A DNA stretch of 26,195 bases from a virus. The stretch is from IMG/VR virus record IMGVR_UViG_3300027881_000065, positions 1 through 26,195 of that record; one strand, 5' to 3'. The first letter of the stretch is position 1. Each line of letters starts with the position of its first letter. Positions 2 through 22,411 of the stretch are shown piece after piece. The notes beneath the pieces are model-generated. The model worked only from the letters and a program-made list of their open reading frames with translations. It was not told the DNA's origin and made no database searches. The translations under genes and the position numbers were made by a program.

Positions 2-853
2 CACGGGGCGTTCTACGGTGCCTCGGCTGACGGCAAGATGCAGATCACGATCCCCTTCGAGATCGAGAGCTCGCAGGCCGTGGGCGGAGACCCGACTACC
101 TTCGTGGGCACCTGCTTCGACGGCCGGCCCATCAAGGTCAGCGTGCAGCCGAACATCCAGGTCCCCATCGGCAACGACGACACGCTGCTCATCCCGGACA
201 GCTGGCAGTGGCTTCCGCTGGATGGCGCCGAGTCGGTCACTCTCCTGGGTGGCGAGGAAGAGGAGGGGACCGAGCAGATTCAAGACAAGGCCGCCTCGCT
301 TCAGATCCGATCTGACGGCTCGAGCTTCTCCTTTGCTGGGCCCCCGGTGGAGAAGCTGTCCTACGATGAGAAGAGCTACCTCGACGTTGATCGGTCTATG
401 CTGCTGATGGCCGGCTTGGGTGTGCACCAGGTACGTGGTGCCGAGAAGCTGGCGGAGGCCATAACGGGTGGCCGGGTAGCCACCATCGCTGCCAAGCACC
501 AGCTCGAGCTCGACGATGACATGCGCAAAGAGGCCGATGGGCAGCGCGCCTACCTTCAGACCATCATCGACAACCACATCAAGAAGCCCGGCCTGGTGAA
601 GGAAGCGGCTACCATGCCCGATCCCACCACCGTCGACACGGTTCTCAGTCTCGGGTTCGTCAACCCGGACAACATCATGAACTACGTGTCGTACCTGCCG
701 GACATCGAGGACTCGCAGAGCAAGATGTGCGAGCTCCTGTTCGGTGTGCGCCTCGGCCTGAGCAACGTGCCTCAGTCCTCACTCGAGCGGGCCATCCGTT
801 CCCTCGAGGAGAGCATCGAGGGGTTGAAGGTCCTCGCCTTCCAGGGCTCCTGA
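2..853 (+). CDS. C-terminal part of an unrecognised, probably virion-associated protein (5' end outside window)
   Basis: The reading frame is open to the left edge and reads naturally before the first ATG at 38 (HGAFYGASADGK), so I treat the gene as truncated rather than starting at 38, where no convincing ribosome-binding site is seen. The N-terminal part looks beta-rich (QITIPFEIESS, IKVSVQPNIQVPI). The second half is helical and contains QDKAASLQ, MRKEADGQ and VKEAATMPD, loose forms of the K-x-A peptide found in the scaffold-like proteins downstream. I do not recognise the family. A structural role is inferred from that peptide and the position beside the packaging genes. It could be the end of a larger structural protein, including an unrecognised portal, but nothing shows that directly. 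It is followed by a hairpin and converges on the minus-strand lipoprotein gene. Confidence 0.7.
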   Translation, partial: HGAFYGASADGKMQITIPFEIESSQAVGGDPTTFVGTCFDGRPIKVSVQPNIQVPIGNDDTLLIPDSWQWLPLDGAESVTLLGGEEEEGTEQIQDKAASLQIRSDGSSFSFAGPPVEKLSYDEKSYLDVDRSMLLMAGLGVHQVRGAEKLAEAITGGRVATIAAKHQLELDDDMRKEADGQRAYLQTIIDNHIKKPGLVKEAATMPDPTTVDTVLSLGFVNPDNIMNYVSYLPDIEDSQSKMCELLFGVRLGLSNVPQSSLERAIRSLEESIEGLKVLAFQGS

Positions 854-2176: not shown

Positions 2177-3139
2177 ATGATTCGGCGCAGCCCGGCTGAG
2201 TTCTACATCAAGTACCTCCTCGTTCACCCGGACGGGTACAGCGATGAGGACGTCGAGCAGACCTTGAAAGAGCATCAGCTCGACAACCCCGGGGGAGGGT
2301 ACTTGCCGCGTTTGCGCAAGCGGTTGAAGGTGCCCACGCCGTTCTATCCGTACAACGATCAGCACCCGTTCTCCTGGCGCTTCTTGATGCGGGAGAAGCT
2401 CTTCCCGCTTTTCCATCCGGACCACCGGATGCTCAGCGCGCTGAACATCTTGCACAAGCCTCGAGCTAAGGAGGCGGTGGAGGCCATGACGTTGGTGAAC
2501 GACCCACCGGCGCTCATCTGCCACCGGCTGCTGTCGCTGGGTGTGAGGATCGACGTCAAGGACCTGCAGCGCTACCAGCACTTCTTCTGGAACACCCAGC
2601 TCGTGGACTCCACGGAGATGCGAGCTCTGCTGACCGTTCGTGTGGACGAGATGTTCCTCGACGGTGAGGACGCTGCCAACCAGGTCCGCGCCGGCGCCAT
2701 GAAGCAGGCCAACTACATCGACCCCAGGTGGCTTGCTGCTCGCTCACCAATTCCAGCGGTGGCAGCGTTGCTGAACCAGATGCGCTTCGGCTACATGCCA
2801 GACCGCATCGACCTGGCCCGCCTGGTCAACGCTGCTGCGTCTACTGCAGCCGTACGCGTGCTGGAAGAGCTTGGTTCGGCCCACCCCATGTCCGGGAAGA
2901 ACGCCCATCACTTCAGCGATGTAGCCACCAACATGTTCAACATGCTCGAGCTCATCGGCAGCCCAGATGAGGACTTTAGGAAGAACCTCACGGTCCTGGG
3001 CTTGGAGACCGAGGAGTTGGAAAACGTGAAGACTGTTGAAGCCGTTACGGATGGGCAGTACACGTCAGATATGCAGCTATTGACAGAAGGGACTACGGAA
3101 GATGTCGGAGAGAGTAGTAGCCAGCCCGATCCTAAGTGA
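2177..3139 (+). CDS. Unrecognised protein upstream of the terminase, 320 residues
   Basis: The frame is closed by a TGA at 2171, so ATG 2177 is the earliest possible ATG. A GAGGG run lies directly against it with no spacer, so initiation may be leaderless or inefficient. The N-terminal 75 residues (SPAEFYIKYLLVHPDGYSD, then an Arg/Lys-rich LPRLRKRLKV) look compact and could bind DNA. The rest is helical. The last 20 residues are acidic and Ser/Thr-rich. The protein lacks the KTA peptide of the virion proteins. Its position two genes before the large terminase suggests a packaging partner such as a small terminase subunit, but I see no diagnostic motif and 320 residues is long for that family. 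It overlaps the next gene by 38 bases. Confidence 0.75.
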   Translation: MIRRSPAEFYIKYLLVHPDGYSDEDVEQTLKEHQLDNPGGGYLPRLRKRLKVPTPFYPYNDQHPFSWRFLMREKLFPLFHPDHRMLSALNILHKPRAKEAVEAMTLVNDPPALICHRLLSLGVRIDVKDLQRYQHFFWNTQLVDSTEMRALLTVRVDEMFLDGEDAANQVRAGAMKQANYIDPRWLAARSPIPAVAALLNQMRFGYMPDRIDLARLVNAAASTAAVRVLEELGSAHPMSGKNAHHFSDVATNMFNMLELIGSPDEDFRKNLTVLGLETEELENVKTVEAVTDGQYTSDMQLLTEGTTEDVGESSSQPDPK

Positions 3140-3578
3140 GGACGACAGCCCCAAGCAGTTCGGTCATGCCATGGGGCAGCAGGCCGATATGGCGCTGTCC
3201 CCAAAGGCTATCGAGTTCAAGGTGGCGGAGTACGAGAACTTCAGGGTGGAGTACGCGATGGTGGACGACGACTTCATCATTCACTTCTTCATCACCCCTC
3301 GTCAGATCCAGATGTGGAGCGAGCCCGAGCTCGAGCACTGGTGGCTCAACGACTTTGCTCAGGTGATGGATCGGGTGGCGCAGGAGTACTTCGACGCTGG
3401 TCCTCCTCGGCTGCAGGCGAAGTACACTCGGGAGGTTGCGTCGTGGTGGTTGAAGGCGCAGGGCTACGGGCACTTTGTATCGCCCGAAGCCTTTCTACTC
3501 GGCTTCTTCGAGCAGCTTGACGGTACTTTTCTGAAGTACGCCGATCCTCCTCCTGCTTCCACAGGGGCCATGGGCTGA
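3102..3578 (+). CDS. Hypothetical protein, 158 residues, between the 320-residue gene and the terminase
   Basis: The start at 3102 is the first ATG after an in-frame TGA at 3081. Purine-rich AGAAGGGACTACGGAAG lies just upstream. The protein is rich in aromatic residues (YENFRVEYAMVDDDFIIHFF, EHWWLNDF, ASWWLKAQGYGHF) and reads as a small alpha/beta domain followed by helices. No known motif was identified. The 38-base overlap with the preceding gene suggests translational coupling, and both may serve packaging. Its 3' half is overlapped antisense by the read-through tail of the minus-strand gene that begins at 3843. Confidence 0.72.
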   Translation: MSERVVASPILSEDDSPKQFGHAMGQQADMALSPKAIEFKVAEYENFRVEYAMVDDDFIIHFFITPRQIQMWSEPELEHWWLNDFAQVMDRVAQEYFDAGPPRLQAKYTREVASWWLKAQGYGHFVSPEAFLLGFFEQLDGTFLKYADPPPASTGAMG

Positions 3579-3843
3579 GCGTCATACCCATCGAGTTCTT
3601 CGTGAACTTGACGCCCTTTGCCTTCCAGCCGCACTGCTTCATGAACAGCCGCACGAACTTCGGCAGGCACCGTTTGGCACCGTCAGGCAGGTCCCCGTTG
3701 TGCTCGAGGTACCCGGTGGACTCCTCGGTCATGCCGTGGTCGATGGCCCACTTGCCAGTGAAGTGCGGGCCACCCGCGGCCAGCCACGCGAACATCCTTC
3801 CCAGCGCCTCCTGGGGATCTGCTGACTCCTGAGGATCTTCCAT
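3346..3843 (-). CDS. Antisense hypothetical gene, 165 residues, only the first ~95 convincingly coding
   Basis: Between 3843 and about 3560 the minus strand reads like real protein (HFTGKWAIDHGMTEESTG, KFVRLFMKQCGWKAKG), and codons end almost always in G or C, as in neighbouring genes. No plus-strand gene covers 3579-3841. Downstream of about 3560 the frame runs opposite the plus-strand gene ending at 3578 and becomes low complexity, so the last ~75 residues may be a read-through tail after loss of the native stop. The first ATG shares a CCATGG palindrome with the terminase start. A second Met at 3795 follows GGAAGG and AGGAGG and could be the true start. None of the AAAAGAAGT motifs lies upstream. 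The function is unknown. Confidence 0.5.
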   Translation of the reverse strand: MEDPQESADPQEALGRMFAWLAAGGPHFTGKWAIDHGMTEESTGYLEHNGDLPDGAKRCLPKFVRLFMKQCGWKAKGVKFTKNSMGMTLSPWPLWKQEEDRRTSEKYRQAARRSRVERLRAIQSARSPAPSTTTTQPPECTSPAAEEDQRRSTPAPPDPSPEQSR

Positions 3844-5635
3844 GGCGGAACCTGCAGTAGACCTGACTCAGCTGCCGGACACTGAAAACCCGTACGACGA
3901 TACATGGTACGAGGAACAGGTCTGGTGTCCAGAGCCTAAGCTCCAGGAGAGCCCGCTAGTTCTATCGCTAGCGAAGCAGAAGCTCCCCAAAGTACCGAAG
4001 CTGAAGCCCTCTCAGTTCACCGAGCGGGTGTTCATGATGCCCAAGGACGAGGGCACGGGCTTCGACCACTTCTCCTTCGAGGGGCGTGAGCACCTGAAGA
4101 GGATCTACAACACGCCCAGCCGCCGGGTGTTGTTGTGCTGCGGCCGACAGGTGGAGAAGAGCACGCTGCTCGGCAACATCGGGCTCTGCTACATGAGTCT
4201 CGTAGCAGCGATGAGGATCCTCTACGTGAGCCCCTCGGCCACGCAGACGAAGACGTTCAGCAACGACCGCGTGAAGGAGCCCATTGAGACGAGCCCGATG
4301 CTCAAGCGGTTCACGACGAAGATGCTCTCCCAGAACATCTTGGAGAAGCAGTTCATCAACCGCAGCAAGCTGACACTCCGCTACGCGTTCCTCAACGCCG
4401 ACCGTACTCGAGGCATCCCGGCTTGGAAGCTCATGATGGATGAGCTCCAGGACATCCTCCGGGACAACATCCCGGTCATTGAGCACTGCACCTCACATGC
4501 TCCTGACCAGTGGAAGAGCTACACCTACGCCGGCACACCAAAGAGCCTGGACAACATCATCGAGGAGTACCGTTCCAACAGGTCTACTCAGGGTGAGTGG
4601 GTGGTGCCCTGTGACCACTGCAACAACTGGAACGTGCTGGGCGAGAAGAACATCGGGTTGAAGGGCCCCATCTGCGCCAAGTGCGGCGGTGACATCAATC
4701 CGCAAGACACGAAGTGTCAGTGGGCCTGGATGGTGGAGCCCGATGAGGAGCGCCTGGTAGTCCCGTGGGAGAGCTACCGCATTCCTCAGATCATGGTGCC
4801 GTGGAAGATCCGCAACTGGAATGAGATCTTGCATGACTACGAGCACCACCCTCGAGGAAGGTTCTTCAACGAGTGCTTGGGTATCAGCTACGAGTCTGGC
4901 CTACGTCCGCTCACCACCTCTCAGGTACGTGCGTGTTGCAGGGAACACATCTCGATGGCAGATCTGGAGAAGAGCCGCTCGCTGGCTCTGGGTCAGCCGT
5001 TCTTTGCTGGAGTGGACTGGGGCACGGGCGACAATAGCTACACCGTGCTCACCATTGGTACGTACATCGAGATGAAGTTCCGGGTGCTCTACATGCACCG
5101 GTTCGTTGGTGAGGAAGCCGATCCTGAAGTTCAGATCGAGCGCATCATGGAGATATGCGAGAGGTTCAGCGCTCGCATGATTGGAGTCGACTACGGCTTC
5201 GGCTTCGGCTTGAACGGAAGGCTCATCCGTAAGTTCGGTGCCCAACGCGTGCAGAAGTTCCAGTACATGGCCCAGATGAAGGGCAAGCTCATCTTCGACA
5301 ACAAGCTCATGCGGTGGAAGGTGCACCGCACTGAGGTCATGAGCGCCATCTTCGACGCCATCAAGAAGCAGAAGTGTGAGTTCCCCAAGTGGTCAGAGTT
5401 CCAGAGGCCCCACGCTCAGGACTTCACCAACATCTACTCGGAGTACAATGAGAAACTGCGAATGGTCATGTATGACCACAAGCAGGGCAACCCGGATGAT
5501 TCATTCCACTCGTTCCTGCTGTGCTGGCTGTCGTCCATGCTGCTGATTGCCCGTCCCGACATCCTCAACCCGAGCAGGGAGACCGCAAGTGGTCAGCCAA
5601 TCAGTGAGTATCAGGGGCCGTACAACCAGGGGTAG
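3842..5635 (+). CDS. terL: Terminase large subunit (ATPase and nuclease), 597 residues
   Basis: This is the motor that cuts concatemeric DNA and pumps it into the prohead. The N-terminal ATPase has a Walker A-like GRQVEKST at residues 101-108, where the usual Gly before Lys is Glu, a Walker B KLMMDE at 196-201 with catalytic Glu 201, and a coupling-type YAGTP at 229-233. Residues 257-281 hold two CxxC pairs (C257, C260, C278, C281), a zinc-ribbon insertion. The C-terminal RNase H-like nuclease shows VDWGTGD (Asp 392), GVDYG (Asp 450) and GNPDDSFH (Asp 552/553), the expected acidic triad. The length suits the family. The start is set by GAGGATCTTCC before ATG 3842. The last 35 bases overlap the convergent HTH gene. 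Confidence 0.95.
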   Translation: MAEPAVDLTQLPDTENPYDDTWYEEQVWCPEPKLQESPLVLSLAKQKLPKVPKLKPSQFTERVFMMPKDEGTGFDHFSFEGREHLKRIYNTPSRRVLLCCGRQVEKSTLLGNIGLCYMSLVAAMRILYVSPSATQTKTFSNDRVKEPIETSPMLKRFTTKMLSQNILEKQFINRSKLTLRYAFLNADRTRGIPAWKLMMDELQDILRDNIPVIEHCTSHAPDQWKSYTYAGTPKSLDNIIEEYRSNRSTQGEWVVPCDHCNNWNVLGEKNIGLKGPICAKCGGDINPQDTKCQWAWMVEPDEERLVVPWESYRIPQIMVPWKIRNWNEILHDYEHHPRGRFFNECLGISYESGLRPLTTSQVRACCREHISMADLEKSRSLALGQPFFAGVDWGTGDNSYTVLTIGTYIEMKFRVLYMHRFVGEEADPEVQIERIMEICERFSARMIGVDYGFGFGLNGRLIRKFGAQRVQKFQYMAQMKGKLIFDNKLMRWKVHRTEVMSAIFDAIKKQKCEFPKWSEFQRPHAQDFTNIYSEYNEKLRMVMYDHKQGNPDDSFHSFLLCWLSSMLLIARPDILNPSRETASGQPISEYQGPYNQG

Positions 5636-6338
5636 TAGGCATGAAACGAAGGATCCGCTTGTGAATGTCGGGCTCCAGGTGGGGGAACCTCCTGTATGCC
5701 TCACGCTTGCCGTCTCTGGCACACACGAAGTTGAAGACGACGTTCTCGAACTGCCCCCGGGCTGCCTGAAGCTCCGCCTGCGCGGTCGCGATCTCTATGT
5801 ACTCAAACAGCTGGGTACCAGTGCAGTTCTTCCGAAGCCGTTGGGCGGCCTCCCTGAATACTCTCCATGGCTCACGGTCTTCGGTATGGAGCTCGACGAG
5901 TTCCAGGAACTCCTGATGTATGCCGCGCAGGGTCTTGGAGAAGTCGAGGACGACCATGAACTCGCTAGTTGGGTCTCGAGCGAGGTCCTTGGCTGCCCAG
6001 TACACGGCGAGCACTTCGTCCTTCTCGTACGAAAGGATGGGGACATCCAGGTGGTTGACCGCTTCCACATGCCCTAGCCGCTGCTCGAGCGAGCTGCATC
6101 GCGCCTTGAGCTGCAAGATCTCAGCCAGTAGTCGTGGGAGGTCGAGCTTCCCGTCTAGGCCATCGAACGCTTCTTTCACTGCGTAGATCTGGTCCCGCCC
6201 GTACATCTTCTTGCGGCGGTTCCCATCGTGACTCGCGCTAAGCAGCCCTGAGTCGGTATACTGGTAGACGCGACGCTGCGTGCACCCAAGGATTTCAGCA
6301 GCTTCGGCGGCTGTGATGAGTCCCGCTTTTCTTCCCAT
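5601..6338 (-). CDS. MerR-like helix-turn-helix DNA-binding protein, about 245 residues
   Basis: The N-terminus (GLITAAEAAEILGCTQRRVYQ, then SGLLSASHDGNRRKKMYG) is a MerR/excisionase-type winged helix-turn-helix at roughly residues 6-52, so the protein should bind DNA. A coiled-coil stretch (LLAEILQLKARCSSLEQRL) follows and may mediate dimerisation. The remaining 150 residues are helical and not recognised. I prefer Met 6338 over Met 6353, because the putative promoter motif at 6357-6371 lies only 3 bases before 6353, which would leave no leader. It is a single minus-strand gene between terminase and head genes, probably a regulatory moron controlling phage or host transcription. Its 3' end overlaps the terminase stop region by 35 bases, so transcription of the two genes collides. 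Confidence 0.75.
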   Translation of the reverse strand: MGRKAGLITAAEAAEILGCTQRRVYQYTDSGLLSASHDGNRRKKMYGRDQIYAVKEAFDGLDGKLDLPRLLAEILQLKARCSSLEQRLGHVEAVNHLDVPILSYEKDEVLAVYWAAKDLARDPTSEFMVVLDFSKTLRGIHQEFLELVELHTEDREPWRVFREAAQRLRKNCTGTQLFEYIEIATAQAELQAARGQFENVVFNFVCARDGKREAYRRFPHLEPDIHKRILRFMPTTPGCTAPDTH

Positions 6339-6356
6339 GAGCTTTGACCCCATGCT

Positions 6357-6371
6357 ACTTCTTTTGTAGCC
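6357..6371 (-). promoter_or_regulatory. Candidate phage-specific promoter motif, copy 3
   Basis: On the minus strand this reads GGCTACAAAAGAAGT, sharing AAAAGAAGT and the GGC lead with the copies at 1366 and 2110. It fills most of the 34-base gap between the divergent HTH gene and the plus-strand gene at 6388. If it is a promoter, transcription starts within or just beyond it, favouring the HTH start at 6338. Confidence 0.45.
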
Positions 6372-6387
6372 ATCTCGCGAGGTTCTG

Positions 6388-7536
6388 ATGACCGAGTACG
6401 AACTTCCTCCGCAGACTCAGCTCCAGCAAGCGTCTGCGCGGCGGGTTTCCGGAGAGGAACTCGAGACTTTTGGCAAGAGCGCAGCGGCTCTCTTTCATCA
6501 GGGAGACGTCGACAACCTGAATGATGCCGTCGTCAAGACCATCAAGAAGGAGGCGCTCAGCCCGGAGCAGGTGAAGCGGGTCGTGGAGTTCACCAACACC
6601 CACGCGTTCATCGACGAGTTCAGGAAGGAGGGCGAGGCCACGAAGTACGTTCACTTCGAGCACGGCCCGGCCCACCCAGCGGAGGTCATCAAGGACCTGA
6701 ACGATGGGGGCGGCGGTACCGTCTTCGACACCGGAAACTTCGACTACTCTCACGAGCCCGCGGTAGTGAAGAAGGGTTCGGCTCAGGGGCTGTACGCCGG
6801 CAACCTCAGGAGCATGGAGAAGACGGCGGCCGACCCGAGTATGGGTCCCGCTCCTCCCCCTCCCGGTGCTGAGGAGATGCAGCTCGAGGCAATCCGGTCG
6901 GCGCTGGGCGAGCCGAGGTTCACACCGCAGGATGTTGCGGCGCTGCATCGTGCCCTTATATCTCAGCAGACTCCGCTACCCGTCGAGGCTCAGAAGCAGG
7001 CCGAGGCTGACGCAGTGCTGGCCGAGGCGTTCAAGACCGAACACATCTCGATCCCCTACGCGAATCCACTTCAAGATGTCGAACAAGTTCAAGACAAGCT
7101 CGCTACGGCCCGCGATGCCGCGACAGCGAAGATGTCTGAGCTCGAGGTCGCCCTGCTCGACATCAATAGTGATCTCTACCACCAGGTCAAACAGGCAGCA
7201 CTGGCAGAGGTACCGCTCGGTCATGTGCTGCAGGCATGGCACGAAGTCTTTCATCCTGATGAGGCCCTGGTGAAGGCGGCCTTCTCCTTGATCGGGCCCA
7301 GGTTGTACGCTGAGGGCATCTTCAACGCGGACCAGCTCGGGGAGTCCATGCAGAAGACGGCGGGGAGCATGATGCTCAACGAGGAGCATCCGATCATCAA
7401 GACGTTCGGTGCCTACACCGAGGCGATCACCAAGCTCGCCGAGCTGCGCGCGGCCAAGAACGAGCTCGAGTCCGGGCTGGAGAAGGTGCAGACCTTCAGG
7501 AAGATGGCCACTCAACACATGGAGCTGGCCCAATGA
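6388..7536 (+). CDS. Probable virion-associated helical protein, 382 residues
   Basis: The start ATG 6388 follows GCGAGG with a 5-base spacer. The protein is almost entirely helical, with a Gly-rich turn (NDGGGGTVFD) and a Pro-rich linker (GPAPPPPGAEE) separating N- and C-terminal halves. It contains MEKTAADPS near the linker and MQKTAGSMM near residue 330, two exact copies of the KTA peptide shared by the head-module proteins. The C-terminal 50 residues look like a coiled coil. I do not recognise the family. It occupies the position where portal genes often lie, between terminase and protease, but it is short for a portal and shows no portal-like features. The next gene starts inside its stop codon in an ATGA overlap. 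Confidence 0.75.
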   Translation: MTEYELPPQTQLQQASARRVSGEELETFGKSAAALFHQGDVDNLNDAVVKTIKKEALSPEQVKRVVEFTNTHAFIDEFRKEGEATKYVHFEHGPAHPAEVIKDLNDGGGGTVFDTGNFDYSHEPAVVKKGSAQGLYAGNLRSMEKTAADPSMGPAPPPPGAEEMQLEAIRSALGEPRFTPQDVAALHRALISQQTPLPVEAQKQAEADAVLAEAFKTEHISIPYANPLQDVEQVQDKLATARDAATAKMSELEVALLDINSDLYHQVKQAALAEVPLGHVLQAWHEVFHPDEALVKAAFSLIGPRLYAEGIFNADQLGESMQKTAGSMMLNEEHPIIKTFGAYTEAITKLAELRAAKNELESGLEKVQTFRKMATQHMELAQ

Positions 7537-10723: not shown

Positions 10724-13702
10724 ATGCGGGAGCCAGAGAAAAGAGCTGCAGCCATGGGGTCGGCCTTGGTCGACCCCGTAGTTCAGCAGGCAACGATGGC
10801 TCCCGTGCCGAAGCCCGCAATTGCAAACAAGCCAGCCCCAGGTCGAACGGGCCCCGGTTCCAAGACCATGGGGATGTCGCCAAGAGCATCCTATTCACCC
10901 GCCCTGACAGGCACCCCGCGTACTCCTGATGCAGGTGCCGCGTCACAAAAGAGCGTTGCCCCACCAAAAGTAGCCCACCTGGAGATCCCGAACATGACCG
11001 TGTCAGAGATGAGCCGACCGAGCCTCAATGACCTGATCAAGGTGGCGATGGAGACCTCTGCAGCGAAGATTGACCTCTCGCTCGAGACTGCTCGCCAGCT
11101 TGGCAATGCAGGCGAGCCGCCGCCTCCCGAAGCGGAGAAGACGGCAGCCGCTGAAGATGACATCCCGCCCGAGTACATCGACAAGCTCGCGGCTGGGTGC
11201 CTCTACCTCGCCAAGGAGATGGACCCGAAGGTCGCCACCGTCGACTTCCCGGGTACGGAGAACGAACTCGGTCCCGGCAAGGGTCCGAACGCCTCCGACG
11301 TCTCGGCGGCACAGAGCGAAGAGCAGAACATCGCCGAGGCAGGCCAGATGGGCAAGGCCACGGATGCGAACACTCCTCCGCTCAACCCACCCACGCAAAA
11401 GGATCCCACTCGCTCGGCGGGCCCGGACAACCAGCTGCAGACCAACGACGACATGTCGCACCCGGAGCAGGGTGAGGAGCCGATCAAGAACGAGAAGGCT
11501 TCGCTCAGCAACGAGAGCGTCAAGGCCAGCGCGGCCTACGTGAACAACCTCATCGCAGTCGGTCTGGCCAAGGTGGCGGCTGATGAAAGCGGCGAGGTCG
11601 GTCTGGTCAGTGCCATCACTGGTCAGAAGCTGGCGTTCACGGTTGGAGATCCCGGGAGCTCTCCCCCGAAGGCGCCGAAGCGTGGCCTACCGGAGCGGAA
11701 GCCACAGGGTCCTAAGATGACGCTGAAGGACCCGGGCAAGCCGATGCGTCCGATCAAGGGCGGGAAGTACGCTGAGGCCACGCCGACCATTGGAGCCCCG
11801 CCGGGGCAGCCCATGGGTGGAAAGAAGGCTCCTCCCAACACGCCTCCTCCTCAGAAGCCAATCACCCCCGACTTCAGTGGGATGATGGGTGCGCCTCCCG
11901 AGGACATCTTCTCCAAGCTCAAGGAGAAGAAGGGCTCGGTGAACGAGCTCGACGCGGCGACCCTTCACAACCTGAAGGCACTCGGCCTGAGCAAGCAGGC
12001 GGAGGACGCCATCGCTCCGGCATCGATCAGCGGCGGCGCGGCGCCGGCGCAGGGCGCTACCCCTCCCCCGGGTGCGGCCCCGAGTGAAGAGGGCATCCCT
12101 CCGGAGCCCAGCGATGTCGACAAGCAGAAGAACAAGATGCTGCAGTCCAACCAGGCGGCCATCGACTACACGAAGAAGGACGCCAAGGGCGACCCCATCA
12201 CGGACGTGAACCAGGTGTTGAACGAGCCGGCGATGAGCGCCGCGCACGACAAGACCTTGAACAAGGTCTTGGATCACACCCAGGAGGCCGGGGCGAAGAT
12301 CTCCTCGGCGATGTCTTCAGCCATCAGGAAGATCGCCTCGGGAAAAGCACGTAAGGCAGCTCAGGGCGGCAGCCCTGAAGCTGCCGCCATGAACAAGCTC
12401 GCTCTCCTTGGTGCTCTGCCGGGCGCATCGGAGGCCCCCACCGGTCAGAAGCTACCGGGCGCCATCAGTGGCAGCGCCGGTAGTGCTGGTGGGGCACTTG
12501 CTGGTGGTCTAGGCGGTGCCGGTGTTGGCGCTGGCCTGGGCGGCCTGGCAGGTGCTGGCCTCGGTGCTTTGGGCGGTCTCGCCTTTGGTGGTGACCCATC
12601 GCAGTCGGCAATGCTCGGTGGGAAGATTGGTCTGGGCGCAGGTGCGCTCGGCGGCGCGGGCCTCGGTGGGTACTACGGTGCCGGCAAGGGCTACGAGGCT
12701 GCCATGCGTCCCTACGGTGAGATCGAGGCTCTTCGTGGTCAGAACATCGCCATGAAGGACTGGATCCAGGGAGCTCACCAGGCCGGCATGGACAAGGGCG
12801 GCTCGGCGAACTTCGGTGATCTCTCAGGCCGCACGCTCGCTCATGCCATGGCCAAGGTGGCCGCGCCAGGCGTTCGACGCGTGGCTGGTATCGGACAAGA
12901 GTTCCTCGAGGGAGCTCAGGATGTAGCTCAGGCAGGGAAGCGCAGTGCTCCCAAGATGCCGTCGGCCGCTAAGGCACCGGCCCCGGTGCATACTGCGCCT
13001 CGTCCTACACCTGCTGCTGCTCCAGCAGCTGCGGGAGCTCCTGCACCGGTACAACCCGGCATCTATGATGAAGCTGTGTCTGGTGCGAACATGAGTCCAG
13101 ATATGCAGGGTCTGCATGCAGACTTAGCACGGTTCAAGTCGGGCAAAATGAGTCCGCAAGAGGCGGCTGAGTTTCAGCTACGGGCTGGTCAAACTGGTGT
13201 GAAGCAGCAGCATGTACAGCGTGCTCAGGGTCAGGTAGCTGATGAGATGGCCGAATTGCAGAGCCTCATTGAGCAGAACATGGCTTCAGGCATGGGCAGA
13301 GAACAAGCCGTGGCTGCTGCACAAGAGGCTGTAGGCAAGGGCATGGGTACCGGTACAGCCCTGGCTGTCGGCGGTGGCCTAGGAATCGCTGGTCTTGGTG
13401 GTGCCGGCCTGGCCGCCGGGGCCATGGACGAGGGTGAGTATCCGATCTCCCCCGGTTACACCTCTCCGTACGTGGGTGCTGTCGAGAAGAAGTATCCTAC
13501 CCCCGGGAAGTACGCTTCAGCCAACCCTCTGAAAATGGCTGCGGCCCGCGCAGTTGTCAGTAAGTTGGGTGGGAAGAAGGAAAAGCGTTCAGCGGGGATG
13601 CCTACGGGTGCTGGCGCATCAGGAGGCGCTGGAACTGGTGAACAAGCGGGTGACACCGGAAGTGCGAATATGCCATCGGCGGCTTCTCCTCCTGGTATGT
13701 AG
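10724..13702 (+). CDS. Large low-complexity internal virion protein with glycine-zipper segments, 992 residues
   Basis: This is the largest gene in the window. Pro/Ala-rich linkers separate helical patches carrying K-x-A peptides (LNDLIKVAME, AEKTAAAEDD, EYIDKLAAG, AVGLAKVAADE, MAKVAAPG). Roughly residues 585-655 are almost pure Gly/Ala/Leu (AGLGGLAGAGLGALGG), a glycine zipper able to form packed membrane helices, and a second one lies near 872-902. It lies between the scaffold-like gene and the capsid gene, six bases after the former. The start is uncertain: ATG 10724 has only a distant AAGGG, and ATG 10754 is an alternative. From about 12890 codon use shifts to less GC at third positions. 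I infer an internal or ejected protein processed by the protease. No enzyme motif was recognised. Confidence 0.78.
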   Translation: MREPEKRAAAMGSALVDPVVQQATMAPVPKPAIANKPAPGRTGPGSKTMGMSPRASYSPALTGTPRTPDAGAASQKSVAPPKVAHLEIPNMTVSEMSRPSLNDLIKVAMETSAAKIDLSLETARQLGNAGEPPPPEAEKTAAAEDDIPPEYIDKLAAGCLYLAKEMDPKVATVDFPGTENELGPGKGPNASDVSAAQSEEQNIAEAGQMGKATDANTPPLNPPTQKDPTRSAGPDNQLQTNDDMSHPEQGEEPIKNEKASLSNESVKASAAYVNNLIAVGLAKVAADESGEVGLVSAITGQKLAFTVGDPGSSPPKAPKRGLPERKPQGPKMTLKDPGKPMRPIKGGKYAEATPTIGAPPGQPMGGKKAPPNTPPPQKPITPDFSGMMGAPPEDIFSKLKEKKGSVNELDAATLHNLKALGLSKQAEDAIAPASISGGAAPAQGATPPPGAAPSEEGIPPEPSDVDKQKNKMLQSNQAAIDYTKKDAKGDPITDVNQVLNEPAMSAAHDKTLNKVLDHTQEAGAKISSAMSSAIRKIASGKARKAAQGGSPEAAAMNKLALLGALPGASEAPTGQKLPGAISGSAGSAGGALAGGLGGAGVGAGLGGLAGAGLGALGGLAFGGDPSQSAMLGGKIGLGAGALGGAGLGGYYGAGKGYEAAMRPYGEIEALRGQNIAMKDWIQGAHQAGMDKGGSANFGDLSGRTLAHAMAKVAAPGVRRVAGIGQEFLEGAQDVAQAGKRSAPKMPSAAKAPAPVHTAPRPTPAAAPAAAGAPAPVQPGIYDEAVSGANMSPDMQGLHADLARFKSGKMSPQEAAEFQLRAGQTGVKQQHVQRAQGQVADEMAELQSLIEQNMASGMGREQAVAAAQEAVGKGMGTGTALAVGGGLGIAGLGGAGLAAGAMDEGEYPISPGYTSPYVGAVEKKYPTPGKYASANPLKMAAARAVVSKLGGKKEKRSAGMPTGAGASGGAGTGEQAGDTGSANMPSAASPPGM

Positions 13703-13724: not shown

Positions 13725-14099
13725 ATGAACGTGAACATGGAAAAGGCTGCAACGATGCTCGTGGACGCAGGGGTAACTCTGAAGAAGCAAGCGTCAAAGA
13801 TCTCCACCCTCAAGGACGAGCTTCAAGCAGAGCAAGAGAAGACTGCGATGCTCGAGAGGCGGATGGAGGCGGAGAAGATCGCGGCGGACATGCACGACAA
13901 GGGCGTCAACGTTGACGTCTCGTTCGACAAGCTCGCTGCCAAGCTCGAGGAGGAGCCCCCGAACCGCCTCGACGTGATCAAGGAGGCGCTTGCGATGCAG
14001 GCGCCCGACATGCTTCGGGGCGCACACTTGTCAGACTCTCCTGCGCCCGGAGGAGGAACTTCCGAGTTCGAGCGTTTCATCCTGGGAGACGTCGGCTGA
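13725..14099 (+). CDS. Small coiled-coil protein, likely scaffold or capsid-assembly factor, 124 residues
   Basis: The start ATG 13725 follows AGAGGATCCA. Residues 18-60 are a heptad-like, highly charged coiled coil (LKDELQAEQEK, MLERRMEAEKIAADM) containing one exact KTA. VSFDKLAAKLEEE is another K-x-A peptide. After a Gly/Pro hinge the protein ends with SEFERFILGDVG, a short amphipathic tail of the kind that scaffolding proteins use to bind capsid subunits. The first residues of the 759-residue protein at 17920 (SDFERFLRQDTS) resemble this tail. Size, coiled coil and place two genes before the capsid gene all suit an assembly scaffold. No family was recognised. Confidence 0.7.
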   Translation: MNVNMEKAATMLVDAGVTLKKQASKISTLKDELQAEQEKTAMLERRMEAEKIAADMHDKGVNVDVSFDKLAAKLEEEPPNRLDVIKEALAMQAPDMLRGAHLSDSPAPGGGTSEFERFILGDVG

Positions 14100-14735: not shown

Positions 14736-15857
14736 ATGTCAGGCCGCATGGTCAATGAACTCTTCAACACCCGCTTGAGCGAGCCCGGCGGGAAAGAGAA
14801 GCTGGCGCAGTTCGGTGGCTCGTACATCCGTGACCGTCTTCGCGAGGTCAGCTTCGTGCGCAAGATCCTGCCCCCAGAGCAGGTGACCCGCACGGACTGC
14901 CAGCGCTCGACCAAGCACGACACCCTCGTCAAGATCGTGGATGTCGAGCCCAAGTCCCGCGCCATGGCGATGACCTTCCGCGGTCAGCCTACGGCTCGCT
15001 TCATCCGGGGTCCACGTGCCGAGGTGGCGTTCTTCACCATCTCGTCCGAGGTCTTCCAGAAGACCGAGCAGGAGCTGCTGGCCTACGAGATGCCCATCAC
15101 CAAGATCATCGAAGAGAACTCGGTGAAGGACATCCAGGAGATCGAGGACCGCGAGTTCGTGTTCCACGTCGAGGCAGCGGTGCAGGCACTGCAGGCAGAA
15201 GCCAACAGTGTGGCAGCAGCACCGATCCTCAACTGGACCACGCTCGATGGTGCCACGCCTCCGGTGGAGTTCAGCGTACGCAAGGGCGAGCTGGCACGTG
15301 CGGCCGGTGCTGACGACGCGGTGGTCCGTCCCCTTCAGCGCAAGGACATCGTCGAGGGCTTCAAGCTCCTGGACGGTAACCGTCTGCGCTGCGAGCGGTG
15401 GCTGATCACCGAGGTGGACTTCGACGACCAGCTGTCGTGGACGGTCGAGGACCAGGGCGACAAGATCCAGTCGGAGACCACGGTCGACGGCTACAAGTAC
15501 AACACCCTGCTCGGGCGGCCCTACATCCGCTCGGTCAAGACGGACATCCTCCGTCCGGGCAACTTGTACTTCTTCACGTCGCCCGAGTTCTTCGGAAAGT
15601 TCTACGTCCTGAACCAGACGAAGTTCTACATCGACAAGGTCGCGAACATGATCACCTTCCAGGCGTGGGAGGACATCGCGATGTCGATGATCAACATCGC
15701 TGCGGCTCGAAAGATCGAGCTCTACTCGGCTGACGCGACCGAGAACGACGACGACACGCTGCGCGACAACTTCATCCCGGTGGCCGAGGAAGCCCTGGGC
15801 GCGGTGAACAACCGTGTGGACAAGGGCCTGAAGTTCCCGCAGATCGTCAACAACTGA
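14736..15857 (+). CDS. Major capsid protein, 373 residues
   Basis: The main shell subunit. The start ATG 14736 has AAAGGGAACCCATC upstream, a strong site fitting a highly expressed protein. The first 110 residues form an N-arm and strand region (GGSYIRDRLREVSFVRKILPP, then DVEPKSRAMAMTFRG), followed by a long helix near 125-160 and a beta-rich C-terminal half (YFFTSPEFFGKFYVLNQTK, MITFQAWEDIAMSMINIAA). That order is what I expect of an HK97-fold capsid protein of myophages. It is placed after protease, scaffold and decoration genes and is closed by the only strong terminator in the window, as is common for capsid genes. No KTA peptide is present. A propeptide cannot be defined from sequence alone. 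Confidence 0.87.
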   Translation: MSGRMVNELFNTRLSEPGGKEKLAQFGGSYIRDRLREVSFVRKILPPEQVTRTDCQRSTKHDTLVKIVDVEPKSRAMAMTFRGQPTARFIRGPRAEVAFFTISSEVFQKTEQELLAYEMPITKIIEENSVKDIQEIEDREFVFHVEAAVQALQAEANSVAAAPILNWTTLDGATPPVEFSVRKGELARAAGADDAVVRPLQRKDIVEGFKLLDGNRLRCERWLITEVDFDDQLSWTVEDQGDKIQSETTVDGYKYNTLLGRPYIRSVKTDILRPGNLYFFTSPEFFGKFYVLNQTKFYIDKVANMITFQAWEDIAMSMINIAAARKIELYSADATENDDDTLRDNFIPVAEEALGAVNNRVDKGLKFPQIVNN

Positions 15858-16463: not shown

Positions 16464-16970
16464 GTGGGAGAGGCACTCGAAGGCGTTCAAGCGCTGAGTC
16501 CGTCCATGCAGGCGTTCGTGCAACAGGTTCGCCTGTTCACGCGCGACCATCCGCAGCTCAACCGGCTCATCGCTGGCGAGGAGTCCGGGGACAGGATCAT
16601 CGCCTGGGCGATCATGGATGCCATCGCTGACTTCAACGGCACTCCGCACTTCACCACTTGGTCCATCGACACCTTTCTTCAGAAGAGCCAGCAGGCCCTT
16701 CTCACCCGCATGACGACGATCACTCTGCTCGAGTCAGTGGGTCTTCTTCAGACGCGCAACCACATCAACTACTCGAACGGCGGCATCAACGTAGGCGTGA
16801 ACGACAAGACATCGCTCATCATGAACTGGCTGCAGTACTTCAAGAGCTCGACGGAGCAGATGAAGCAGAAGGTCAAGGTGGCGGTGAACATCGAGTCGAT
16901 CCTGGGCCCTGGGAACCCAGGGATTCATTCAGAACTCTGGGCTGTGAACGCCTCCTACCTCTCGTACTGA
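16464..16970 (+). CDS. Probable head-completion/neck protein, 168 residues
   Basis: I accept the GTG start at 16464, which immediately follows the preceding TAA with GAGGAG just upstream. The alternative ATG at 16507 would remove 14 unremarkable residues. The protein is mostly helical with conserved-looking patches (LIAGEESGDRIIAWAIMDAI, DFNGTPHFT, LLQTRNHINYSNGGI) that match my memory of a small head-tail connector found after the capsid gene in large phages. It probably joins the portal ring to the tail. The exact family is not named. The next start codon lies 3 bases after its stop, so translation is probably continuous through the cluster. Confidence 0.65.
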   Translation: MGEALEGVQALSPSMQAFVQQVRLFTRDHPQLNRLIAGEESGDRIIAWAIMDAIADFNGTPHFTTWSIDTFLQKSQQALLTRMTTITLLESVGLLQTRNHINYSNGGINVGVNDKTSLIMNWLQYFKSSTEQMKQKVKVAVNIESILGPGNPGIHSELWAVNASYLSY

Positions 16971-16973
16971 ATC

Positions 16974-17435
16974 ATGCTCAAGATACTCCAGTTCGGTAAC
17001 CTGCGGCGCGTTGGATTCGTGCTCAACGGAGGTATCGCCGGTGGCAAGCGAGTCATCAACTCGGGCGGCAAGGTGCTCGGCTTGAATGGCAAGACCCTCA
17101 TCTTCACCACTCCAGCCGGCACGGTGACGTTCAGTGATACTGGTGGCACCGGTCTATCGATGGCAGACATCATCGCCGAGATCGTGGGCACCGGTGGACT
17201 GTCGGGTCTCAAGCCTGGCTTCAGCGATGGCTACTTGAATGTCATCGAGACTACGCCGACCAACGGTGTTGTTCTTGCCGGCACGGGTACAGCCAATGCG
17301 GCCTTCGGGTTTGGGAAGTCAACTGTGACCGGTCTCGTCTACGATCCGCCAGGCGGCTCTGCTCCACGGATGGTAGGTGGCATCCAGGTCCGGGCGCAGC
17401 TGGATGGTTACTACGTACTCGTGGAGCCGGCATGA
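16974..17435 (+). CDS. Beta-rich structural protein, first of two tandem paralogues, 153 residues
   Basis: Shared blocks with the next gene are GKVLGLNGKTLIF, GTVTFSD, IETTPTNGVVLAGTGTA, AFGFGK and APRMVGGIQ, in the same order, so the two arose by duplication. The same pattern (GL-x-G, TVTFSD, AFG-x-G) recurs in the tail sheath at 25172, suggesting a common small alpha/beta domain. The protein has no signal peptide or coiled coil. No ribosome-binding site is obvious before ATG 16974, three bases after the previous stop, so reinitiation is likely. It ends in an ATGA overlap with its paralogue. The likely role is a head, neck or decoration component. The precise location in the virion is unknown. 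Confidence 0.75.
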   Translation: MLKILQFGNLRRVGFVLNGGIAGGKRVINSGGKVLGLNGKTLIFTTPAGTVTFSDTGGTGLSMADIIAEIVGTGGLSGLKPGFSDGYLNVIETTPTNGVVLAGTGTANAAFGFGKSTVTGLVYDPPGGSAPRMVGGIQVRAQLDGYYVLVEPA

Positions 17436-17923
17436 TCAGTACACTACTAGCAGCAGACCTGTACATCATGCAGGACCTGATCAACGGGGCCATCTTCGGT
17501 GGGCGTAAGGCCGTTGGCACCACCGGAAAGGTGCTCGGGCTGCACGGGAAGACCCTCGTCTTCAACGACCCGTTGATTCCAGCCAACCCTCTCGGCACCG
17601 TGACCTTCGACAACCCTGGAGGGGCTGGTCTGACGCCGGAGGAGATCAACGATCAGATTCATGACGTTGGCAACCCCGGGCCTTTTCCATTGGCCATCTA
17701 CATGGTCACCTTCGCTGACAGGACAGCTCGCCTCATTGAGATCACCCCGACCAACGGGATCTTGCTGAAGGGCACCAGCACCGCCAGTCCAGTCTTCGGG
17801 TTCGGCAAGGAAGACGTCGCGACTGTGATCTACAACCCATTCGACGGTGTGGCGCCTCGAGTCATCGGTGTGCAGCCAACGGTAGAGATGGACAGTTACT
17901 ACGCTACAGTGGAGCTACCATGA
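17432..17923 (+). CDS. Beta-rich structural protein, second of two tandem paralogues, 163 residues
   Basis: It aligns over its whole length with the preceding protein: INGAIFGGRKAV with LNGGIAGGKRVI, then GKVLGLHGKTLVF, GTVTF, IEITPTNGILLKGTSTA, VFGFGK, APRVIGVQ and a final YYATVEL. An insertion (NDPLIPANPL) and a longer middle distinguish it. The two copies have diverged too much for a recent duplication, so both are probably retained for separate roles, for example as partners in a hetero-oligomeric ring. GGAG lies a few bases before its start, and it overlaps both neighbours by ATGA junctions. The GLHGKTLVF block resembles GLHGLPLVL in the sheath protein. Confidence 0.75.
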   Translation: MISTLLAADLYIMQDLINGAIFGGRKAVGTTGKVLGLHGKTLVFNDPLIPANPLGTVTFDNPGGAGLTPEEINDQIHDVGNPGPFPLAIYMVTFADRTARLIEITPTNGILLKGTSTASPVFGFGKEDVATVIYNPFDGVAPRVIGVQPTVEMDSYYATVELP

Positions 17924-20201: not shown

Positions 20202-22094
20202 ATGTTGGACAGATTCGTAGAAGTCTTGGTCGAGCGTGAGAAGAAGGCGCAGGTCACTGACGAGATCACCGAGATGCTGAAGAAGCTCCCGGTGGATGAG
20301 ATCTCAAAGGTCGCCTGCGGTGATGTTCCCAGCGGCAAGACCTGGCTGACGAAGTACGAGGGCACGCCCTTGTACGACCAGGCCGTCGCCCTCGAGGAGA
20401 GCAAGCTGCAGCTCGAGGCCAAGTCCATCGAGCGTCGGATGCAGCGGAGCCAAGAGCGTGCGCAGGAGCGTATGCAAGAGGCGGCCGAGCCCGACACCTA
20501 CGACCAGAAGGACATGATCCGCTTGAAGCAGCGGCTGCTCGACCTCGATCTCTCCAAGCAGAATCTCACCGGTGGTGCTCCTGCGCCGGTGGAGGAAGCT
20601 GAGGAGGACGAGGGTGAAGTTGCGCCGGACATCAACGGTCCCGAGCAGGTGCCCATGGAGGCGACGGCCAGCGCCAACTTCGTTCGGGACATGGCCAAGG
20701 AGGCTCAGGGGGAGCAGGCGTACTACCCCCAAGAGCAGCAGTACTATCCGCAAGAGCAGCAGCAGTACTACCCGCAGGAGCAGGAGTACCAGGGCTACGA
20801 TCCTCGGTTGTACGGACTGGGTGGCGCAGCTCTTGGTGCTGCCGCAGGCATTCCGTTTGGGGGAATGGGCATAGATACCGGCTTGGCCGGTGGTCTGGGT
20901 GCCTACTACGGCGCCAAGCGCGGTGGACCAGTAGGTCGTGCTGGCGAGGGTGCAGCTCGAGGTGGTGGAGGTGCAGCTGCAGGCACCGTTGGTGGCGGAG
21001 CCCTCGGTATGCTCGGTGGTGGTGCACTCGGCGCCGGCGCTGGGTACGGCCTCAGCAAACTGCTAGGCATGGATCCCCTCTCTGGAGCTGGTGTTGGTGG
21101 AGCTGTTGGAGGCGGCGCCGGTCTACTTGGCGGCGCTATTCTCGGTGGCCGCAAGGGCTACGACTTGGCCACCCGTGGCCTCGATCAGCCGAAGCAAGCT
21201 GAGGTCACCGACCCGGCGGGGATTGCCAAGGCTGTGCACGCTCTCTCAGCCAAGACGGCTGGGGTGAAGTTGGTGAAGGAACCGAAGCCACCGGCGCCCA
21301 AGAAGGATTGGACTGTCACCGAGGGGCCCAGCACTCTGAAGATCTTCCCCAGGAAGGGAAAGAAGAAGGAGGGCTGCGGTACCAAGACGGCCGAGGCCAT
21401 CGTGTCCGAGTACTTGGAGAAGCAGGGTGAGAGGGAGCAGTACAACCTCGCTCAAGGCGGCATGATTCCAGCAGATATGCGCCCACCTACCAAAGCTCCT
21501 ACCTCATCACCAGAAGCCTTCATGCCCAAGTTCAAGGGCACCTCTAGCAGTCCGAGGTTCTCGCACGCTATCGACTCGGGGACCAAGGAGCCCTTCCTTC
21601 GTGAGAGTCCGACCCATGGAGGTGGTGAGCCGCAGAAGTTCCCGGGTGCAGGCAACGTTCCCATTGAACGGAGTCCAGATGTTTTCTGGGATCGTCCAAG
21701 AGACACAGATGTTCCTCGTCCCCCGGGGACGAAATCGAAGACAACATCGAAGACTGGGTCAGCTATTGACCTCAGCAAGCTGGCCAAGAAGGACAAGGAC
21801 GAGAAGCCCAAGAAGAAGGGCAAGCCGCAGGTCGACACCAAGTGGCGTCCGCCCAGCCTTCCCACTCCAGACTACGTCGGTGACGCTGACGTGTACGCCA
21901 AGCGCCTGGTGAACAAGGCCGTGCACAACGTGCTCAGGGGCATGAAGAAGACCGAGACCAAGGCCAAGCGTGGTGCCCGCAAGGTACTGGGCAAGGAAGG
22001 CTCGGTTCAGAACGTTCAGGTTCTCTTCGAGAAGAACGGCACCGCTTTGTTCAGCACCATGGCGAGAGGTACTTCTCCTCCCCCAAAAGTCTAA
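20202..22094 (+). CDS. Large virion-type protein with extended glycine-zipper region, 630 residues (zero-frame product)
   Basis: ATG 20202 follows GAGGTAATC, two bases after the preceding stop. The N-terminal 110 residues are helical (DRFVEVLVEREKKAQ, IERRMQRSQERAQERMQ). A linker carries three Tyr-Tyr-Pro-Gln-Glu-Gln repeats. Residues about 205-325 form a long Gly/Ala zipper region (GALGMLGGGALGAGAGYG, AVGGGAGLLGGAILGG). Two exact KTA peptides and EYLEKQGERE follow, then a Lys/Pro-rich basic segment (KKDKDEKPKKKGKPQ) and a helical C-terminus. The frame ends at TAA 22092-22094, immediately after a canonical -1 slippery heptamer, and the -1 frame stays open to 22411. A longer 736-residue product is therefore likely. 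Role inferred: internal or ejected membrane-active virion protein. Confidence 0.75.
   Translation: MLDRFVEVLVEREKKAQVTDEITEMLKKLPVDEISKVACGDVPSGKTWLTKYEGTPLYDQAVALEESKLQLEAKSIERRMQRSQERAQERMQEAAEPDTYDQKDMIRLKQRLLDLDLSKQNLTGGAPAPVEEAEEDEGEVAPDINGPEQVPMEATASANFVRDMAKEAQGEQAYYPQEQQYYPQEQQQYYPQEQEYQGYDPRLYGLGGAALGAAAGIPFGGMGIDTGLAGGLGAYYGAKRGGPVGRAGEGAARGGGGAAAGTVGGGALGMLGGGALGAGAGYGLSKLLGMDPLSGAGVGGAVGGGAGLLGGAILGGRKGYDLATRGLDQPKQAEVTDPAGIAKAVHALSAKTAGVKLVKEPKPPAPKKDWTVTEGPSTLKIFPRKGKKKEGCGTKTAEAIVSEYLEKQGEREQYNLAQGGMIPADMRPPTKAPTSSPEAFMPKFKGTSSSPRFSHAIDSGTKEPFLRESPTHGGGEPQKFPGAGNVPIERSPDVFWDRPRDTDVPRPPGTKSKTTSKTGSAIDLSKLAKKDKDEKPKKKGKPQVDTKWRPPSLPTPDYVGDADVYAKRLVNKAVHNVLRGMKKTETKAKRGARKVLGKEGSVQNVQVLFEKNGTALFSTMARGTSPPPKV
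20721..20789 (+). repeat. Tandem repeats encoding Tyr-Tyr-Pro-Gln-Glu-Gln
   Basis: Three in-frame units encode YYPQEQ, YYPQEQQ and YYPQEQE, in a row after GEQA. DNA copies are 18-21 bases and differ only at a few third positions, so the array is repeat-generated. It sits in the linker before the glycine-zipper region. The tyrosines and glutamines suggest a sticky, disordered segment. Confidence 0.8.
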
Positions 22095-22128
22095 GCAAGG
22101 AAGCGGCTAGCCCACTGCATCCCTTGCT
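22082..22128 (+). promoter_or_regulatory. Candidate programmed -1 ribosomal frameshift signal
   Basis: The heptamer CCCAAAA (22082-22088) is in the exact X-XXY-YYZ phase relative to the 630-residue gene (C CCA AAA). Five bases later AGCAAGG (22094-22100) pairs perfectly with CCTTGCT (22122-22128), a 7-bp stem with a 21-base loop. This is the textbook spacing for -1 frameshifting. The zero-frame stop codon lies just 3 bases after the slippery codon, inside the start of the stem region. Confidence 0.6.
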
Positions 22129-22411
22129 CGGAGGAATCTACGGGGCGATCAAGGCACCCTGGGGGAAGAAGCTCAAGGGCGCCTGGGAAGCTGGCAAGGG
22201 CGCCACGGTCCAGGGGACCAAGGATGCCCTGGTGGACGCTGGCGTTGGTGGAGGCATAGGTGCCGCCGGCGGAGCTTTGGCCGGGGGTGTCGGTGCACTT
22301 CCTGGGGCGGCTGGTGGGGCAGCTACTGGGTTGATCACCGGTAGTGCCATCGGTGGTGTTCAGGGTGCTCGGGAGGCCGTTAAGCGGATGCAGCAGCAGG
22401 GCTGGAGATAG
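22088..22411 (+). CDS. -1 frame extension (107 codons) with KEAA peptide and glycine zipper, probably fused to the 630-residue protein by frameshift
   Basis: After a -1 slip on CCCAAAA the ribosome would read SLSKEAASPLHPLLGG and continue to TAG 22409-22411, giving a fusion of about 736 residues. The extension has a K-x-A peptide (SKEAASP), a basic helix (KKLKGAWEAGKGATVQ) and a glycine zipper (AGVGGGIGAAGGALAGG), the hallmarks of this protein class. As a separate gene it would need a TTG start at 22124 with no good ribosome-binding site. GGAGGA at 22130 has no start codon at a suitable distance. Alternatives are a one-base assembly error in the C/A run or a recently broken gene. The next gene starts right after the TAG. 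Confidence 0.6.
   Translation, partial: SLSKEAASPLHPLLGGIYGAIKAPWGKKLKGAWEAGKGATVQGTKDALVDAGVGGGIGAAGGALAGGVGALPGAAGGAATGLITGSAIGGVQGAREAVKRMQQQGWR

Follow-up and report, generated by a model that had tools for sequence, protein, structure and literature searches.

Does the stop codon of gene P1 mark the end of a single product, or do some ribosomes pass it in another frame? The question arises in a 26,195-nucleotide stretch of viral DNA (IMG/VR record IMGVR_UViG_3300027881_000065), the whole of which is referred to here as the window. The 3′ end of P1 reads ACT TCT CCT CCC CCA AAA GTC TAA in the zero frame. A sequence-only reading had proposed a programmed −1 frameshift from an in-phase CCCAAAA heptamer, a 5-base spacer, a 7-bp stem and a 107-codon −1 frame with no good start codon of its own. 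This layout is present (Table 1), and comparison with relatives gives the claim strong support. Judged from these sequences, the site is very probably a genuine case of −1 programmed ribosomal frameshifting, which would yield a 630-aa form alongside one of ~736 aa.

The shift site and its putative stimulators

The spacer between heptamer and stem is GTCTA (22089–22093, 5 nt). The −1 frame has no stop between 21890 and 22411, 107 of its codons lying beyond the heptamer, and its translation past the P1 site, SLSKEAASPLHPLLGG..., includes the glycine zipper. Codon usage favours the zero frame up to the heptamer and the −1 frame beyond it.

Table 1. Position of the P1 shift site, its surrounding signals and the neighbouring head-module genes in the window.
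Feature	Position	Strand	Remarks
Major capsid protein	14736–15857	+	phrog_2522 major head protein (6e-7); anchor for relatives
Upstream gene P3	17920–20199	+	759 aa, one ORF in the window
Zero-frame gene P1	20202–22094	+	630 aa; helical N-terminal domain, glycine-zipper region, Lys/Pro-rich C-terminus ...TSPPPKV*
Shine-Dalgarno-like GAGAGG	22064–22069	+	12 nt 5′ of the heptamer; duplex energy −7.1 kcal/mol
Slippery heptamer C_CCA_AAA	22082–22088	+	In phase with the zero frame
−1 frame extension	22088–22411	+	107 codons, SLSKEAA..., glycine zipper; putative fusion ~736 aa
Zero-frame stop TAA	22092–22094	+	One codon after the heptamer
3′ hairpin	22094–22128	+	AGCAAGG 22094–22100 / CCTTGCT 22122–22128, 7 bp
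Downstream gene P4	22412–23362	+	Neck/stopper-like head-completion protein (Foldseek)

In the mechanism we propose, ribosomes would decode CCA-AAA (22083–22088) while a fraction of them is held by the internal Shine-Dalgarno-like pairing behind and the hairpin ahead. Tandem slippage of tRNA-Pro and tRNA-Lys would move both back by one base to pair with CCC-AAA, from where translation would follow the −1 frame up to 22411. One gene would give the short form and the long form (joined at a K629-S junction) at a set ratio, the latter adding a C-terminal module of K-x-A plus glycine zipper. The purpose of the two forms may be to equip a minority of the subunits of a head-internal or ejection protein with this zipper module, and the extension may act in assembly or membrane passage.

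Bacterial −1 shift signals often, but not always, include a Shine-Dalgarno-like element on the 5′ side and an RNA structure on the 3′ side. The signals around the heptamer are of uneven strength. A Shine-Dalgarno sequence 9–14 nt upstream is a known −1 stimulator (PMC5009743), and across 16 sites both the anti-Shine-Dalgarno pairing 6–22 nt upstream (combined p 3e-9) and, with moderate enrichment, the downstream folding energy (p 7e-4) are better than in controls, taken within the genes for the pairing, although these p-values are optimistic because the 16 sites are partly related and not all independent. GAGAGG in the window ranks among the best 7% of in-gene control positions, and a good element of this kind is absent at the P1 sites of L104 and L069. 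Individual hairpins range in z from −3.3 to about 0; that of the window is ordinary in stability (z −0.57, with 47 of 200 shuffles folding equally well).

Recurrence of the arrangement among relatives

Relatives were found with P4 and the major capsid protein as queries, which yielded more than 160 IMG/VR loci, many being duplicates of one record. These relatives are metagenomic and uncultivated, and several records reach 185–191 kb. Direct scans with P1 and its extension (P0001, P0002) found no relatives, as close ones have no exact seed peptide in common. A search for exact DNA matches to the window site gave no hit and no near-identical relative, and blastn of the P1 gene against cultured phages likewise gave none.

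The survey set consisted of 48 distinct homologues of P1 that are followed by P4. A single ORF extends up to the P4 start in 36 of them, and two forms are therefore dispensable across the family; the other 12 stop early. In 10 of these 12, a slippery heptamer lies 0–2 codons before the stop and the −1 frame reaches the P4 start. The heptamer is CCCAAAA in the window, L007, L043, L076, L103 and L104, CCCTTTA in L069, L072 and L065, and CCCTTTC in L136, all three being sequences that are shift-prone in E. coli (PMC4066793). When mapped onto a tree of P4, the frameshift state requires at least 6–7 changes, 5 of which are forced by well-supported branches.

The extension of the window is homologous, beyond what composition would give, to the frameshift extensions of L007 (z 14) and L065 (z 10.9), and also to the C-termini of single-ORF homologues (L001, z 9.4; L017, z 6.2). 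The continuation of the zero frame, used as a negative control, has no such homology to relatives. The homologous part begins at residue 1 of the extension in the window, at about residue 53 in L065 and at 203 in L007. The place of the shift site within the protein therefore varies, which suggests separate origins or movement of the site. The glycine-zipper character claimed by the sequence-only reading is borne out in the window and its closest relatives and fails in L043, L076, L103, L069 and L072, where the appended part is dissimilar.

The upstream gene P3 has the same frameshift arrangement in six homologues (L069, L072, L049, L083, L112 and L020). CCCTTTA lies 4 codons before the stop in L069, L072 and L049 and 7 codons before it in L083, and CCCAAAA lies 6 codons before the stop in L112 and L020. 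At the same place, L083 has CCCTTTA and L112 has CCCAAAA: both are slippery, yet the encoded residues differ. The appended parts share homology with the C-terminus of P3 in the window, where P3 is a single ORF (z 3.2 to 12.5). We tentatively propose that in two adjacent head-internal genes the ratio of short and long forms is set by parallel frameshift signals that have been repeatedly gained, moved, fused or lost. If so, frameshifting would be a general way of attaching C-terminal modules to ejection or core proteins.

Several further loci show variants of these sites. P1 of L049 (14974–17369) has CCCTTTT where L069 has CCCTTTA; with this one extra T the long form is in frame as the default and a −1 slip would hit TAG immediately, which may be a natural reversal or an indel error. 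The continuation of the P1 homologue in L066 (17340–17376) is open in the +1 frame, and its site, CGT CCC TTT CAC CGC TGA, would permit a +1 shift giving ...RPF-TAEKTAG. In L052, other genes (3045–3615 and 4941–6429) carry GGGAAAG or CCCAAAG 1–2 codons before the stop.

Chance, error and competing explanations

The background frequency of the heptamers was obtained by counting in-phase CCCAAAA and CCCTTTA in 839 non-redundant genes (258,542 codons). Of 21 occurrences, 12 lie 1–7 codons before the stops of P1 or P3, where these counts lead one to expect ~0.6 near all gene ends. By this measure a chance origin of the sites is very unlikely.

Selection on the two frames was assessed in pairs of relatives. 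Between L076 and L103, the differences at codon positions 1, 2 and 3 number 4, 4 and 26 upstream of the heptamer when read in the zero frame, and 16, 5 and 54 downstream when read in the −1 frame. L069 and L072 show the same switch at the heptamer in both P1 and P3. Both parts are therefore maintained as protein, with the heptamer marking the change of frame. It is the site, the homology of the extension, this protein-level selection in relatives and the recurrence of the arrangement that sequence comparison establishes; we infer frameshifting in cells, as well as its efficiency.

Among the competing explanations, the one that survives best places a mistake of assembly or sequencing, or else a true inactivating indel, in the C5A4 run. 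P1 would then be a single ORF in the living phage, as it is in the majority of homologues; the homopolymer is present in the window, whose site was recovered in one assembly only. Against this, nine other distinct relatives have a like heptamer 0–2 codons before the stop, and the CCCTTTA sites among them lack a long homopolymer. Identical early-stopping sequences were recovered from separate metagenomes (L007/L008/L009 and L043/L044), and in relatives the heptamer stays constant while the flanking sequence varies. We regard sequencing error as a very unlikely origin of these sites, and an error or inactivating indel in the window as improbable.

Slightly less probable still is that the extension forms an independent gene, whose translation begins at a start of its own or is coupled to termination at the upstream stop. 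Exactly this state is found in L135 and L139 (L135:3252; L139:3105), where the C-terminal portion of P1 is encoded by a separate gene whose ATG overlaps the stop (TGATG), an arrangement that can be seen as a third state of the P1 locus; in P3 of L049, moreover, an ATG stands 12 nt before the heptamer end, behind GGAGG. In the window, by contrast, the sole early start in the −1 frame is a TTG at 22124, 36 nt on and without a Shine-Dalgarno sequence, and P3 of L020 has no start within 150 nt. A separate gene would also give no reason for the heptamer to be retained, and the −1 frame of L103 opens only at the heptamer. The sequence-only reading had named clearly separate genes in relatives as one of the findings that would overturn it. 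They do exist, but the split is only one of three states and occurs in distant relatives, and the frameshift reading therefore stands.

Transcriptional slippage, in which RNA polymerase would stutter at the run, could draw on the C5A4 run of the window but is highly improbable, as bacterial polymerase is known to slip at runs far longer than the 3–4 A or T present here, and CCCTTTA has only three T.

Gene context and known frameshift systems

The N-terminal domain of P1 is conserved in 41 sequences and predicted to be all-helical (mean pLDDT 83). Pfam, PHROGs and NCBIfam hold no family for P1, and a fold search with the N-terminal domain gave no match, nor did a solved relative turn up, so that the role of the protein rests on gene position. 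The major capsid protein also matches an HK97-fold capsid family of NCBIfam (3.6e-11, below the curated cut-off). Foldseek matched P4 to the neck and stopper proteins of phage 812 and to neck proteins of SaPI1, lambda and FCWL1, and in Gordonia phage Stormageddon the P4 homologue lies just before the tail sheath, with the chaperone after the sheath. This places P1 between capsid and neck genes, and its products are therefore most likely head-internal or ejection-type structural proteins. The terms 'internal virion protein' and 'membrane-active', as applied by the sequence-only reading, derive from this position and from the sequence and are best taken as putative.

A tail assembly chaperone frameshift of the lambda G/GT type, although the commonest phage frameshift, is scarcely credible for P1. 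The two resemble each other in that a −1 slip shortly before the first ORF ends puts a C-terminal part on a fraction of the product, but they differ in gene position and protein. P1 lies upstream of the neck gene and a putative sheath, with no adjoining tape measure gene, and not between tail tube and tape measure genes; the gene order of Stormageddon places the chaperone elsewhere, and the tail module of relatives contains another frameshift candidate. In this tail-module gene (L171:17232–18572, plus strand; L173, minus strand, 16471–17763 of the reverse complement), GGGAAAT or AAAAAAT stands one codon before the stop and is followed by similar −1 extensions of ~140 aa. In these phages this gene is likely to carry the frameshift of the tail assembly chaperone.

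The sequence-only reading considered frameshifting of a virion protein unusual, phage frameshifts being best known from tail chaperones. This is too strong, as head-protein frameshifts are known from T7/T3, A2, PSA, A118 and A500 (PMC5009743). As proposed for P1, a structural gene of T7/T3 (gene 10), Lactobacillus phage A2, Listeria phages A118/A500 (−1) and PSA (+1) gives a short and a frameshift-extended form, and in-frame and frameshifted versions of one kind of extension coexist in those systems, as they do here (PMC5009743). In those phages it is the major coat protein that is extended, mostly by Ig-like domains, whereas here two non-capsid head-module genes of an uncultivated family are concerned and the extensions are partly glycine-zipper modules. 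P1 is not the major capsid gene, as it would be in a system of the T7 10A/10B type, and its extension, a Gly/Ala-rich sequence of apparent zipper type, gives no Pfam hit that would indicate an Ig-like fold. The mixture of in-frame, frameshifted and split versions seen here resembles that of the Ig-like extensions of phage structural proteins, whose placement in or out of frame has been attributed to non-homologous recombination (PMC5009743). With dnaX and IS-type signals, the site shares an X_XXY_YYZ heptamer, a Shine-Dalgarno-like stimulator on the 5′ side and, putatively, a stimulatory hairpin on the 3′ side (PMC5009743, PMC4066793); the heptamer there is AAAAAAG in place of CCCAAAA or CCCTTTA, and the dnaX shift shortens the product where that of P1 would lengthen it.

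Relative to the open-licence literature, these sites would add two neighbouring head-module genes to the cases of phage structural frameshifting, beyond tail chaperones and major capsid proteins. One gene that occurs as a single ORF, with a frameshift and split in two provides a natural series in which to test why phages choose frameshifting over fusion. There is also a practical consequence: automatic annotation would take the zero-frame stop as the end of these genes and miss their conserved C-terminal modules.

Several head-module proteins of the window (38–853, 6388–7536, 10724–13702 and 13725–14099) contain the tripeptide K-x-A more often than their shuffled sequences do. It also stands near the start of many extensions and is perhaps a processing or packaging signal.
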